Origin: Planctomycetota bacterium
Lineage (GTDB): Bacteria; Planctomycetota; Phycisphaerae; Tepidisphaerales; Tepidisphaeraceae
NCBI GenBank assembly: GCA_039182125.1
Contig: JBCDCH010000020.1
Location: forward strand, 1-61,643
DNA length: 61,643 bases
Direction: 5' to 3'
How positions within the stretch are numbered: position 1 is the first letter of the stretch; each line of letters begins with the position of its first letter. The notes under the pieces are model-generated. The model was given only the letters and a program-made list of their open reading frames with translations, did no database searches and was not told the origin of the DNA. The position numbers and the translations under genes were made by a program. Below, in pieces: positions 4,723 to 33,610 of the stretch.

Positions 4723-6069
4723 ATGCGCCGATTCGCTTTCGTTGTCACCATATTGGTTGCCGTTGTAGCTCATGCCGAGCCGCGGCGGACTGGCAACATC
4801 GTCTACGAACTGCCCGCCGGATGGGAAACGCGCGACAGGGACGGGCTGTTTCACAACGTCCGTCCCGAAGACTGGCTTGACCGTGACACCTACCCCGATC
4901 TGTACATCGTTTCCGGCGAACACATCGGTCCGGACCCTGCCGACCTGCAGCGTTGGGCCCTACAGCGAATGGATGCCGTCGTGAAAGACGACGACGAGGA
5001 TGATGTCTTGACGTGGAAACAGTGGCAGGGCGTCGACGACCCGGCGTTCGCTGCCAAGGGCTTTGTGAACATGATGTTCGGCATGGGCGTGGTCCACCGC
5101 GAGAGCGGCCGGTTCGATCGCGGCATGGCGGGCTTTGCGTTCACGGTCGACGGTCACGCCGGCCTGATCTTCATCGAGTTCGACGAGCCCGACGCGGCGA
5201 CGGCGTCGGTCGAAGCCATGCTCGAACTCGTGCAGAGCTTTCGTTTCATCAACCGCTGCACCACGCCCCTTGAGGGTCAATCCCGGCCCGGTCCGTTCAA
5301 CGGCATTTATTGGGGCACATGGTTGGGCCACACCCTCGGCCTCGATGGCATGCTCCAGATGCAACTCCGGCACCACACTTACGTCTTCTTTCCCGACGGT
5401 CGATTCTGCGAGGACATCCCACCCGGCGGCGTGACCGGTTTCGATTACGACAAGCTCGCCGATTCCCACACGCACTTTGTCGGCAACTACTTCGTCGATG
5501 GCAACGCCGTCATCCTCCGCTATGCCTCGGGCGAGATCGAGACGCTCGACTACGAAGACGGCATCATGAAAGACGGGATGGCCATGTTGCAGCCGGTCAA
5601 CATCCCGCCGGACGGTTGGCGGTTCGAGGGCGAACGGTCGGTGTCGTTTTACGCCTCCATGTCGGCAGGCATTGATCCGGGGTCGACCACGACCGTCTCC
5701 GGGGGAGCGACTTACGTTTTCAAGCTCGATGGCACCGTCACATCCGATCGCTGGTCCGGTGCGAGCGGGAGCTTTGATTCCGGCGTCTCCTTCGGCAGCT
5801 TCCGCGACAACGAGCCGGAGATCGGCACGTACGACGTCAACGGCGGTGTCCTCACCATCACGCGTCCCGACGGCAGCACGCGGGCTTGGGACATCTTTAT
5901 CACCGAGCACACCGACCGGGACACCGGCAAGCTTGAGCGCACGCTCTGGATTGGTGGCGATCCGGCCGACGGGATCAAAAATGTCCCTGCCGGCGTCCGG
6001 CCCGACCTCCGGTCCAAGCCGATCAATCCTCTGAGCCCGCCGGTGAATCCGCTCGACCCACCGCGGTAG
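4723..6069 (+). CDS. Secreted protein of unknown function
   Basis: This 448 aa protein begins with a signal peptide (MRRFAFVVTILVAVVAHA, cleavage likely after HA). The next 150 residues resemble the small secreted domains that start with an amphipathic ELPAGWE-type strand and end with a conserved LVQSFRF segment. The middle contains GIYWGTWLG and YVFFPDGRF. A later YVFKLDGTVTSDRWSG and GTYDVNGGVLTITRPDG repeat this theme, suggesting two small lipocalin- or META-like barrels. The tail is Pro-rich (NPLSPPVNPLDPP). Export to the periplasm or cell surface is likely. No catalytic motif was recognised. Confidence 0.75.
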   Translation: MRRFAFVVTILVAVVAHAEPRRTGNIVYELPAGWETRDRDGLFHNVRPEDWLDRDTYPDLYIVSGEHIGPDPADLQRWALQRMDAVVKDDDEDDVLTWKQWQGVDDPAFAAKGFVNMMFGMGVVHRESGRFDRGMAGFAFTVDGHAGLIFIEFDEPDAATASVEAMLELVQSFRFINRCTTPLEGQSRPGPFNGIYWGTWLGHTLGLDGMLQMQLRHHTYVFFPDGRFCEDIPPGGVTGFDYDKLADSHTHFVGNYFVDGNAVILRYASGEIETLDYEDGIMKDGMAMLQPVNIPPDGWRFEGERSVSFYASMSAGIDPGSTTTVSGGATYVFKLDGTVTSDRWSGASGSFDSGVSFGSFRDNEPEIGTYDVNGGVLTITRPDGSTRAWDIFITEHTDRDTGKLERTLWIGGDPADGIKNVPAGVRPDLRSKPINPLSPPVNPLDPPR

Positions 6070-29268: not shown

Positions 29269-29274
29269 TATGCT
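29269..29274 (+). promoter_or_regulatory. Extended -10 TGGTATGCT for PEP-CTERM gene
   Basis: TATGCT at 29269-29274, preceded by TGG, forms an extended -10. It lies 40 bases before the ATG, so a normal leader follows, with AGGAAG as a ribosome binding site. The same ten bases TGGTATGCTG recur at 30092-30101 before pilT. Confidence 0.5.
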
Positions 29275-29314
29275 GCGGGCTCTTGCAGGGGCTGGCACAA
29301 TCCAGGAAGCAGTT

Positions 29315-30043
29315 ATGCGTCTGAGCAGAGTCTTGGCGGTGGGGTTCGTTTCGTCTTTGGGTTTGATCACAGCGGCATCGGCAGCGCCGACGACCTTCGT
29401 CGCCGACGACGGTCGGGGCTCGATCAACACCGGGCCCGGCGCGTTCGAGAGCGTCGATGTCGTCTGGGGCAACTACTTCACGACCGACACGCCGACGCGG
29501 ATCGCGTCGATCTCGGTCGCCTTCGGCCGAATCGCCGAGGATGAATCGGTCACCGTGTTCGTGTTGAACGATCCGGACAACGACGGTGACCCGACCAACG
29601 GCGTCGTCACCGGGACGGGCGTGGGGCTTGTCACAACGACCAACGCCAACAACGCCGATGAGTTCGACACGTTCGTGGACTACGACATCACCGGCGGTCC
29701 AGAGGGCACGTCGCTCGGATTTGTTGAAGGCGGTTTCTTCGTCGGCGTGCTGGTCAATGACCTCGACGCGCTCAATCCGCGACCCGGGCAAAATGGTTTG
29801 CGCGACGCGCCGGCCCGGCGTGATGATGACACGGCCGACGGTGCGGGTTGGTTCTTCTTCGGCGGTGGGAACGAGACGGACTTGAACGATTTGGCCGCCT
29901 TGCCGGTCGGGATCAACGTCGGCGATCCGGCGGTCTTCGGCGGGTTGGCGGGTAACAACCTGGTCCGTGCCGTGAGTGTGCCGGAGCCGGCCGTGATGGC
30001 TTGGGTTGGATTTGTGCTTGCCGCTTTTCGGCGGCGTCGCTGA
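29315..30043 (+). CDS. Secreted protein with PEP-CTERM sorting tail
   Basis: This 242 aa exported protein has a signal peptide (MRLSRVLAVGFVSSLGLITAASA) and a beta-rich body with Asp-rich segments (LNDPDNDGDPTNG) that could bind calcium. The C-terminus reads SVPEPAVMAWVGFVLAAFRRRR: a VPEP motif, one membrane helix and an Arg cluster, the PEP-CTERM signal cut by exosortase. It probably ends up on the surface or in the matrix. No exosortase is in the window. The ATG is chosen for the signal peptide and the AGGAAG site 7-12 bases upstream. Confidence 0.88.
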   Translation: MRLSRVLAVGFVSSLGLITAASAAPTTFVADDGRGSINTGPGAFESVDVVWGNYFTTDTPTRIASISVAFGRIAEDESVTVFVLNDPDNDGDPTNGVVTGTGVGLVTTTNANNADEFDTFVDYDITGGPEGTSLGFVEGGFFVGVLVNDLDALNPRPGQNGLRDAPARRDDDTADGAGWFFFGGGNETDLNDLAALPVGINVGDPAVFGGLAGNNLVRAVSVPEPAVMAWVGFVLAAFRRRR

Positions 30044-31226: not shown

Positions 31227-31694
31227 TTACCGATCATGAACCGACTTACCGTCCTGACCGGGTTTTTTGACCGGCTTCCAGTCGCGGACGCTTCCGCTGT
31301 TGTTGGGTAGATCGTCTTCGCCGAAGGTGAGATTGTCCTTCTTGACCGTGTCGCCACGCTTGGTGGTGATTTTGCCGAGGATGCGTCCGTCAGGCTCGAT
31401 GAAAAGGCGCCCGCCATCGTTGGTCGCCGGCCCGTGGATCAGGCCGGAGACGATGACTTTGGCCCCGCGTGCGACGAACAGGCTGCCGCTGACTTGGCCG
31501 AAGACATGGACGCGCCCGCCGTACTCGACGATCAGATCGCCCTGGACATTGCCGCGCATCCAGAACTTACCTCCGTCGAGGACGCGGACGTCGCCGACGA
31601 TCGTGCCCCAGAGTACGTAGCGTTCGGCGATGACGGCGTCGCCTTGAATCCGTCCGCGCTCTTCCTTGGTCGATTGATTCTCTTGATCTGCCAT
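31227..31694 (-). CDS. Bactofilin-family protein
   Basis: This 155 aa protein carries the bactofilin beta-helix, with repeating six-residue turns: YVLWGTIVGDVRVLDGG, FWMRGNVQGDLIVEYGGRV and VFGQVSGSLFVARGAKVIV. Bactofilins polymerise on the membrane without nucleotide and organise cell shape or polar machinery. The N- and C-terminal tails are charged and short. The ATG at 31694 is preferred because GGAAGG lies about 10 bases upstream and a TAGACT -10 further up, inside the longer frame. It is convergent with pilT (7 bases) and on the same strand as the membrane protein behind it. Confidence 0.82.
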   Translation of the reverse strand: MADQENQSTKEERGRIQGDAVIAERYVLWGTIVGDVRVLDGGKFWMRGNVQGDLIVEYGGRVHVFGQVSGSLFVARGAKVIVSGLIHGPATNDGGRLFIEPDGRILGKITTKRGDTVKKDNLTFGEDDLPNNSGSVRDWKPVKKPGQDGKSVHDR

Positions 31695-31741
31695 CTTTTC
31701 TCGGCCTTCCGCGAAGTGTTCGCGAAGTCTAGCCATTCCGT

Positions 31742-32407
31742 TTACGCGACGGTGTCCGAAGGCTCGGTGTGAATGCGGTCTGCGGTTCCGAGCTCGCCCA
31801 ACGCGAGCTTAAACCCACGCCCGCTTTTGAGCAGCACCAGTACCACCACCAGCAAGGTCGCCAGCGGAGCTACGACGAACCGCAGCCAGTTGAGATAGGT
31901 CGATGTCGATCCCCAATCGTCGGAGGCCACGCCGAACATTCGCAACTCGCCGAACGTGTACAGGACGCCGGGCAGGGCGAACACGCTTCGCGTGAGCGCC
32001 GCTTCGGTAAGAAACAACTGCGTCGGGAAGGTGAGCACCAGCAGTGCCAGCGACCAACCCAGTGCCGCTACCGCCGGTGCGACGCCAAGGCGCCGGTCGG
32101 CGGTGATCAGCAGTGCCTGGGCGAGAATCGCCACGACGAGAACGATCGACACCAGGACGCCGAGCGATGTGGTCGCTCCCAACAAGTAGTGCAACACCTG
32201 TTCGCCGCCGGAAAGTTCGGCCGTGGTGTAACCGATGGCATCGCTCTGGATGACTTCGATCGTCGCATAGTGCGCAAGAAAGAAGATCACCAACTGCATC
32301 AAAAGCACAACGGCAAGCAGCAGCAACGCAAGCGATCGCAATCGACGTACTTTGCGAAGGGCAAGTTCATAGTCCGGGCTTCCCGCAGCGGGTGGGACGA
32401 AAGTCAT
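31742..32407 (-). CDS. Five-to-six-helix membrane protein of unknown function
   Basis: This 221 aa protein has a short cytosolic N-terminus, then about five membrane helices (LRSLALLLLAVVLLMQLVIF, SLGVLVSIVLVVAILAQALL, VAALGWSLALLVLTFP, a weak one, and VVAPLATLLVVVLVLLKSG). The loop after helix 1 contains VIQSDAIGYTTAELSGGEQV and probably faces the periplasm. No family was recognised. It is divergent from the AAA ATPase gene (63 bases apart) and lies upstream of the bactofilin, so it may share a function with either. TACAAA lies 6 bases before the ATG on the minus strand. Confidence 0.65.
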   Translation of the reverse strand: MTFVPPAAGSPDYELALRKVRRLRSLALLLLAVVLLMQLVIFFLAHYATIEVIQSDAIGYTTAELSGGEQVLHYLLGATTSLGVLVSIVLVVAILAQALLITADRRLGVAPAVAALGWSLALLVLTFPTQLFLTEAALTRSVFALPGVLYTFGELRMFGVASDDWGSTSTYLNWLRFVVAPLATLLVVVLVLLKSGRGFKLALGELGTADRIHTEPSDTVA

Positions 32408-32470: not shown

Positions 32471-33610
32471 ATGGCAGTCAGCTGGGCGAGTTTCGAGCGG
32501 TACAAGCAGCGGGGTCTAGACGCGCGGCGGGCCGGGCAGTGGGAATCAGCGCGGACGTACTTGCTCGAAGCCAGCCGGGCGATGGTGGAGCTTGCGCGTC
32601 AGTCTGACAGTGACGCGATCGCGGCGGCCCGTCGTGACACTGCGGCGAAGCTGCTCGAACTCGCCAAGGATTGTGCCGACGCCAAGGAATCGGGCCGAAA
32701 GGCGCCCGGCGTGGACCGCGGCAGCGGCAAGCAGGCAGCCAGCGCCGAAGGCGAAGAGGACATCGACGGAGACAAGTTTCTCGTCAAGGAAAAGCCGGGC
32801 ATCACCTTCGCCGACGTCGCCGGGCTCGAAGACGTGAAGGAAGACATCCGGCTCAAGATGCTTTATCCGTTCCAGCATCCTGAGCTCGCCGAGCGGTTCG
32901 GCATCCGCGCCGGCGGGGGCGTGTTGCTGTTCGGGCCGCCGGGCACAGGCAAGACGATGCTCGCCAAGGCAACCGCCGGCGAGTTGGACGCGGCGTTCTT
33001 CAAGGTCAGTCCCGCCGAGGTGCTGAGCAAGTGGGTCGGCGAGGCCGAGCAGAATGTGAAAGCGCTGTTCGACGCAGCCGCCGATGAGCCGCGTGCGGTG
33101 ATCTTCATCGACGAGATCGAAGCGTTGGTTCCCGCTCGACGCGATGACGGCGGGACGAGTGTGATGCAGCGCGTGGTGCCGCAGATACTTCAGGGCATGG
33201 AAGGGTTCGAGAAGAAGGCCGGGCATCCCGTGTTGTTCATGGGGGCGACGAACGTGCCGTGGCAGCTCGACAGCGCGGTGCTGCGGCCCGGGCGGTTTGA
33301 TGAGAAGGTCTACGTGCCGCTGCCCGACGACGCGGCCCGGGTGAAAATGCTGGAGATCTACCTCGGCAACCGCCCGCTTGCCGACGACGTGGACCTGGAT
33401 CGTCTCGCGTCGAAGCTCGCCGGCTACAGCGGGGCTGACATCAAGTACATCGCCGACCGCAGCGCGGTGATTCCGTTCATGCGCAGCGTCGCCAGTGGCG
33501 AGCCGGGGGAGATCACGGCCGAGGTGGTCGAGGAAGTCATCGCCGCGACCCCGCCGTCGGTTCGTCGCGATTCACTGGCCCGTTTCGACGAATGGGCCGC
33601 GGCACACTGA
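32471..33610 (+). CDS. MIT-like + AAA ATPase with Vps4/katanin layout
   Basis: This 379 aa soluble protein has two parts. Residues 5-72 form an MIT-like bundle (YKQRGLDARRAGQWESARTY, then LLEASRAMVELA and LLELAKDCADA), followed by a 35-residue charged linker. Residues 110-345 are an AAA module: Walker A GPPGTGKT (155-162), pore loop SKWVGEAE (186-193), Walker B IFIDEIE, and sensor/Arg-finger region with R272 and R275. After YSGADIKYIADR and a PFMR segment comes TPPSV and a final helix. KWxGE and the TPPSV tail are hallmarks of the meiotic clade (Vps4, katanin, spastin). There is no membrane helix or protease domain, so it is not FtsH. It may pull apart a filament or protein complex. Confidence 0.82.
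   Translation: MAVSWASFERYKQRGLDARRAGQWESARTYLLEASRAMVELARQSDSDAIAAARRDTAAKLLELAKDCADAKESGRKAPGVDRGSGKQAASAEGEEDIDGDKFLVKEKPGITFADVAGLEDVKEDIRLKMLYPFQHPELAERFGIRAGGGVLLFGPPGTGKTMLAKATAGELDAAFFKVSPAEVLSKWVGEAEQNVKALFDAAADEPRAVIFIDEIEALVPARRDDGGTSVMQRVVPQILQGMEGFEKKAGHPVLFMGATNVPWQLDSAVLRPGRFDEKVYVPLPDDAARVKMLEIYLGNRPLADDVDLDRLASKLAGYSGADIKYIADRSAVIPFMRSVASGEPGEITAEVVEEVIAATPPSVRRDSLARFDEWAAAH

Follow-up and report, generated by a model that had tools for sequence, protein, structure and literature searches.

The window analyzed here is a stretch of 61,643 nucleotides from a planctomycete genome (contig JBCDCH010000020.1). It encodes an AAA ATPase, whose features are collected in Table 1 together with the membrane protein and bactofilin genes near it. 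The reading frame of the ATPase is only three codons shorter than the open frame that encloses it. Full-length orthologues were found in relatives (64–70% identity) and at 80 further loci (47–70%), so the frame is not coding by chance, and the protein represents a conserved planctomycete family. All of the classical AAA features were present, namely Walker A and B, sensor 1 (GATN), the Arg fingers, and the lid. The alignment also contained every motif named in the first-pass annotation, including GYSGADI (residues 318–324), and most of the motifs were invariant across 18 orthologues (54–69% identity).

Table 1. Coordinates of the ATPase gene, its features, and the nearby genes in the window
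Feature	Position	Strand	Basis or remark
MIT-AAA ATPase gene (P0001)	32471..33610	+	ATG start, 379 aa
Predicted three-helix MIT-type domain, residues 5–74 (H5–21, H24–44, H48–74)	32483..32692	+	AlphaFold2, Foldseek, VIA, hhalign
Linker, residues 75–101, charged, poorly conserved	32693..32773	+	Orthologue alignment
AAA core and lid, residues 102–341	32774..33493	+	PF00004 E 1.8e-38, PF17862 E 6.3e-8
Walker A GPPGTGKT (155–162)	32933..32956	+	Orthologue alignment
Pore loop 1 SKWVGEAE (186–193)	33026..33049	+	K187, W188, V189, G190 invariant in 28 diverse members
Walker B FIDE (212–215)	33104..33115	+	D214, E215 invariant in 28 diverse members
Arg-finger loop LRPGRFD (271–277), CDC48-style	33281..33301	+	R272, P273, G274, R275, D277 invariant
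TPPSV (360–364) and C-terminal Vps4-like helix, residues 360–379	33548..33607	+	S363, V364 invariant
Membrane protein (c8)	31742..32407	-	Divergent; 63 bp between start codons
Bactofilin (c11)	31227..31736	-	PF04519 E 2.2e-6

In Pfam, only the AAA domain and its lid scored clearly above the cut-offs. The C-terminus gave a weak match to Vps4_C (PF09336, E 0.089), and the alignment of the CdvC model extended through residue 376. The NCBIfam scores were 234 bits for CDC48, about 228–229 for CdvC, and 223 for PAN, all far below the cut-offs and so nearly equal that family models alone cannot place the protein. With eukaryotic Vps4, katanin, and spastin (the yeast Vps4 and human spastin and katanin queries were checked against PDB records), it shares the order of MIT domain, linker, AAA core, and C-terminal helix, the KWVGEAE pore loop, and the PWQLD and PLPD motifs. 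The Vps4-like layout proposed on first reading was thus borne out in its pore loop, its C-terminal helix, and the position of an MIT-type N-domain. Unlike these proteins, the ATPase has no beta domain, lies outside their clade in the tree, and, in comparison with reference sequences, lacks the two-residue deletion (RRF) in the Arg-finger loop of Vps4, katanin, and CdvC.

The N-terminus, first read as an MIT-like bundle, was examined by structure prediction. The AlphaFold model, built from a 36-row alignment (mean pLDDT 90), was an antiparallel bundle of three helices and about 75 residues, as in MIT domains. Foldseek matched it at a probability of 1.00 to the MIT domains of NRBF2, Vps4, MITD1, katanin, and chitin synthase, with no E-value below 0.07. 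With VIA-align 2, 70–74 residues were superposed on the MIT domains of MITD1, katanin p60, and VPS4A (Z 11.8–12.0, rmsd 1.3–1.7 Å); because some TPR structures reached Z values of up to 11.5, at larger rmsd, the fold alone is not decisive for MIT. The Pfam MIT model did not match the domain, and Pfam matches to TPR were weak. Against the PDB, the profile of the domain matched 2mpk, the MIT domain of an oomycete chitin synthase (E 0.01), and the VPS4B MIT domain (E 2–3). A direct comparison by hhalign gave E 4e-4 over 60 columns (probability 35%) for the Vps4/CdvC MIT profile, against E 0.05 over 24 columns for the planctomycete TPR of the sister AAA family described below. That MIT profile included human VPS4 rows and one Sulfolobus acidocaldarius CdvC row. 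Both the profiles and the predicted fold favour an MIT-type domain rather than a TPR.

The surroundings of the gene were evaluated by clustering the genes around 80 homologous ATPase loci (clusters c0, c1, and so on). The neighbours had been described as a divergent membrane protein and a bactofilin. The membrane protein is indeed divergent and adjacent, whereas the bactofilin comes second, beyond it, and is not an immediate neighbour. Within the window's family, they occurred near the ATPase at 10 and 7 of 15 loci, respectively, and only there was the pair conserved beside the ATPase. An aminopeptidase-like gene (c21) often lies between the two. Farther off in the window (29270–30043, +), a secreted-looking protein ends in VPEPAVMAWVGFVLAAFRRRR, a PEP-CTERM-like sorting tail. 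That the ATPase remodels the neighbouring bactofilin polymer, as the proximity within the family might suggest, is highly improbable, since both genes are divergently transcribed and both are absent beside the ATPase outside the family, where another gene, c1, adjoins it. Bactofilin was rejected as a partner on the grounds of this restricted linkage, and the membrane protein is probably not part of the mechanism. The conserved partner, outside the window's family, was c1.

In loci outside the window's family, the genes follow one another on the same strand in the order kinase with zinc ribbons (c4), c2, c3, c1, AAA, and c0. In 53 such loci the sequence extends 5 kb or more upstream of the ATPase gene; c1 precedes it in 42 of these, and wherever c1 was present it was on the strand of the ATPase (49 of 49). 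Two of the c1-linked loci are on chromosome records (CP070718 and CP030884), which argues against contamination. In the product of c2, a coiled coil comes after a segment that was judged by eye to resemble a winged helix, for which Pfam gave a single HTH_11 match (E 0.06). Its coiled coil is related to c3, which matched the c2 C-terminus in a profile comparison (E 1.2e-6). As an ESCRT-III protein by sequence, c3 was rejected: neither Pfam nor the PDB gave a match, and no profile link to c1 was observed. The c4 product is a Ser/Thr protein kinase with a C-terminal double zinc ribbon, encoded within the c1 operon, and is possibly a regulator. In most cases the next gene downstream of the ATPase is c0 (52 loci; for example, L051:9117–10880), whose product of about 590 aa is propeller-like by a weak Pfam match. 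It was not found in the window's genome by a single-query search.

The c1 proteins have about 200 aa, begin with M-x-LFKS, and continue with a long basic helix 1 and an acidic tail. Pfam Snf7 (PF03357) matched 21 of 38 members, the best at E 1.6e-5; the matches are below the gathering score (25.1 against 27.3 bits). The copy in the window's genome matched at E 6.3e-4 over profile positions 4–149 of 171. In the PDB, the c1 profile found only CHMP3 and CHMP2A, both weakly (E 0.09 and 0.5). The AlphaFold model, which is moderately confident (mean pLDDT 72; H7–49, H52–110, H115–151, and H161–200), has the helical hairpin of the ESCRT-III type plus further helices. In a Foldseek search of the PDB, ranks 1 to 21 were all of the ESCRT-III superfamily, among them CHMP2A, CHMP1B/IST1, Asgard CHMP4-7, Snf7, CdvB, and Vipp1; the VIA Z-score of about 9.9 (Snf7) was barely above those of unrelated helical hairpins. 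A MIM1-like pattern, L..[RKE]L..[LM][KR], was present in 25 of 38 c1 tails and in 0.2% of shuffled ones, the pattern having been chosen after the tails were seen. The strict form, L..RL..L[KR], occurred in none of the 38 tails, and the copy in the window's genome has another register. Taken together, these results identify c1 as a protein of the ESCRT-III type, on good though not conclusive grounds. An identity as PspA was ruled out, as the PspA/Vipp1 model (PF04012) matched nothing in the window's genome and was positive in nine control genomes. With bacterial PspA and Vipp1, c1 shares a coiled-coil fold of the ESCRT-III superfamily and an N-terminal amphipathic segment, but it matches Snf7, below the curated cut-off, and not PspA_IM30, and it would have a dedicated MIT-AAA partner.

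The genome of the window carries c1 (E 1e-79) next to c3 (E 1e-65) on a different contig from the ATPase, in one row with c2, a pair of membrane proteins with zinc ribbons, and the kinase; the ATPase is absent there. The two small zinc-ribbon membrane proteins (L110:5790–6164 and 4952–5797, -) lie between the kinase (L110:6180–7301, -) and c2. In a relative assembled as a single contig, the ATPase and c1 are both present, 4.9 Mb apart, so that the split in the window's family is real and not an assembly artefact.

The two genes also occur together. In a sample of 392 planctomycete genomes, in which the ATPase was called present at E values of at most 1e-90, the ATPase was found in 35 and c1 in 56; 32 of the 35 had both (Fisher 2e-28), and the three others were 54, 66, and 80% complete. 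Of 41 relatives, 17 had both, two the ATPase only, four c1 only, and 18 neither (Fisher 6e-6), while in the window's family alone the counts of 15, 2, 4, and 4 (p 0.06) were only suggestive; none of these Fisher tests takes shared ancestry into account. In 20 of the 24 genomes of the sample that have c1 and lack the ATPase at this cut-off, an AAA protein detected by profile lies on the contig of c1, mostly 0.2–1.5 kb from it. Two that were inspected (L154 and L155) have a helical N-domain and the short Arg-finger loop SRFEKQ. They are of the c26 type, as most of the 20 probably are, a second MIT-AAA adjoining c1, with a Vps4-style short Arg-finger loop, also seen at L094, L103, L105, and L107. 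In some genomes c26 replaces the ATPase type of the window, and in others both flank c1. A profile of its MIT domain, of four rows only, gave no match to that of Vps4 (E 0.13).

Phylogenetic trees of AAA cores were rooted on FtsH. The CdvC rows were taken from PDB alignments, and PAN, E. coli FtsH, and Msp1 were among the references. The ATPase family formed one clade, sister to a planctomycete TPR-AAA family (support 97/95 and 99/96). This pair stood next to the meiotic group and c26, and all of these together excluded CDC48-D2 (95/89 and 98/92). AU tests rejected grouping the family with CDC48-D2 (p 0.015) or FtsH (p 0.037), whereas a grouping with the meiotic group and c26, excluding the TPR-AAA, was not rejected (p 0.08 and 0.28). 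The reference set was small, and the exact place of the family is thus provisional. Provisionally, then, the AAA core would belong to a sister lineage shared with the planctomycete TPR-AAA and not to Vps4/CdvC proper. The suggestion in the first-pass annotation of an early-branching or mixed form agrees with a core outside the Vps4 clade that carries LRPGRFD. Of the FtsH/p97 likeness seen there, the CDC48 style of the loop itself stood, and a grouping of the whole core with either did not.

The TPR-AAA (L025, L026, L027, and L149) share with the ATPase the sister AAA core, a PW motif, and RPGRFD, and differ in their N-terminal TPR repeats and C-terminal tail. That tail, ALYSNQGGxYDDI, is conserved among them. 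Given this sister group, the weak TPR matches in Pfam, and the TPR superpositions by VIA, the protein could be an adaptor-bearing AAA unfoldase with a TPR-like N-domain that has no relation to ESCRT-III and acts on proteins in general or on membrane proteins, with the linkage to c1 reflecting a shared regulon only. We consider this unlikely, since MIT fits better than TPR in both profile and fold, linkage and co-occurrence with the ESCRT-III-like c1 are tight, and a second MIT-AAA occupies the same place beside c1 in other genomes.

The MIT domain, the Trp pore loop, PWQLD, the C-terminal helix, and a CdvC model score about equal to that of CDC48 would also be expected of a Vps4/CdvC orthologue acquired from archaea along with ESCRT-III, and archaeal VPS4-like ATPases are on record from several bacteria (PMC11237479). 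Such an origin is nevertheless quite unlikely for this gene, as the tree places it with the planctomycete TPR-AAA, beside and not inside Vps4/katanin/CdvC, and the AU test rejected uniting the family with Vps4 and CdvC (p 0.005) or with the meiotic group (p 0.03). The Arg-finger deletion is also missing, and c26, which grouped with Vps4/katanin/CdvC in the tree (87/82), is the better candidate for the Vps4 clade.

We conclude that the protein is probably the MIT-AAA disassembly ATPase of a planctomycete, bacterial ESCRT-III-like membrane-remodelling system. The polymer-remodelling role first thought conceivable is thereby supported, with c1, encoded elsewhere in the genome and beside the ATPase in other planctomycetes, and not the bactofilin, as the likely substrate. 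In the proposed mechanism, c1, probably together with c3 and the coiled coil of c2, would bind the membrane by short N-terminal amphipathic segments (M-x-LFKS, MGLFDWL) and polymerise. A hexamer of the ATPase would dock by its MIT domains on the acidic C-terminal tails of c1, and perhaps of c2 and c3, and thread subunits through its Trp/Val (KWV) pore loop, and this extraction would drive turnover or constriction of the membrane-bound polymer. The cellular process served may be division or repair, or it may concern internal membranes or vesicles. Separation of the ATPase gene from the c1 operon would have taken place in the window's family, with both retained.

Systems of this kind are confined to archaea and eukaryotes according to published reviews, and bacteria are described as lacking a clear Vps4 homologue (PMC7615534). 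The archaeal Cdv system (CdvC with the ESCRT-III protein CdvB) is similar in having an MIT-AAA without a beta domain and, probably, in its Snf7-type partner, often in adjacent genes. The proposed planctomycete system differs from it in being bacterial, in its sister-lineage AAA core with a CDC48-style Arg-finger loop, and in its c2, c3, and kinase partners, and no CdvA was seen. Bacterial operons with Vps4-like or double-AAA genes, some beside PspA/Snf7, have been reported (Ravi et al. 2024; PMC11237479). There, unlike in the planctomycete system, snf7 is displaced where the archaeal VPS4-like ATPases are present, or the AAA proteins accompanying PspA/Snf7 are of the double-domain type; planctomycetes are not mentioned. 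Nor are they in a 2025 review that discusses bacterial ESCRT-III-like proteins (PMC7618577), and no ESCRT system in planctomycetes was found in the literature searched, whose scope left out bioRxiv and most subscription papers.

On balance, we lean towards a complete planctomycete ESCRT-III/MIT-AAA system with several ESCRT-III-like subunits and one or two MIT-AAA, either of ancient bacterial descent or transferred early, in which the ATPase would be an independent, non-Vps4 lineage with an acquired MIT domain. Linkage of a Snf7-like protein with an MIT-AAA in bacteria rich in membranes would change the view of where ESCRT remodelling takes place. It opens to experiment the question of whether a dedicated ATPase can drive bacterial ESCRT-III polymers, and it adds rows with which the origin of ESCRT may be dated.
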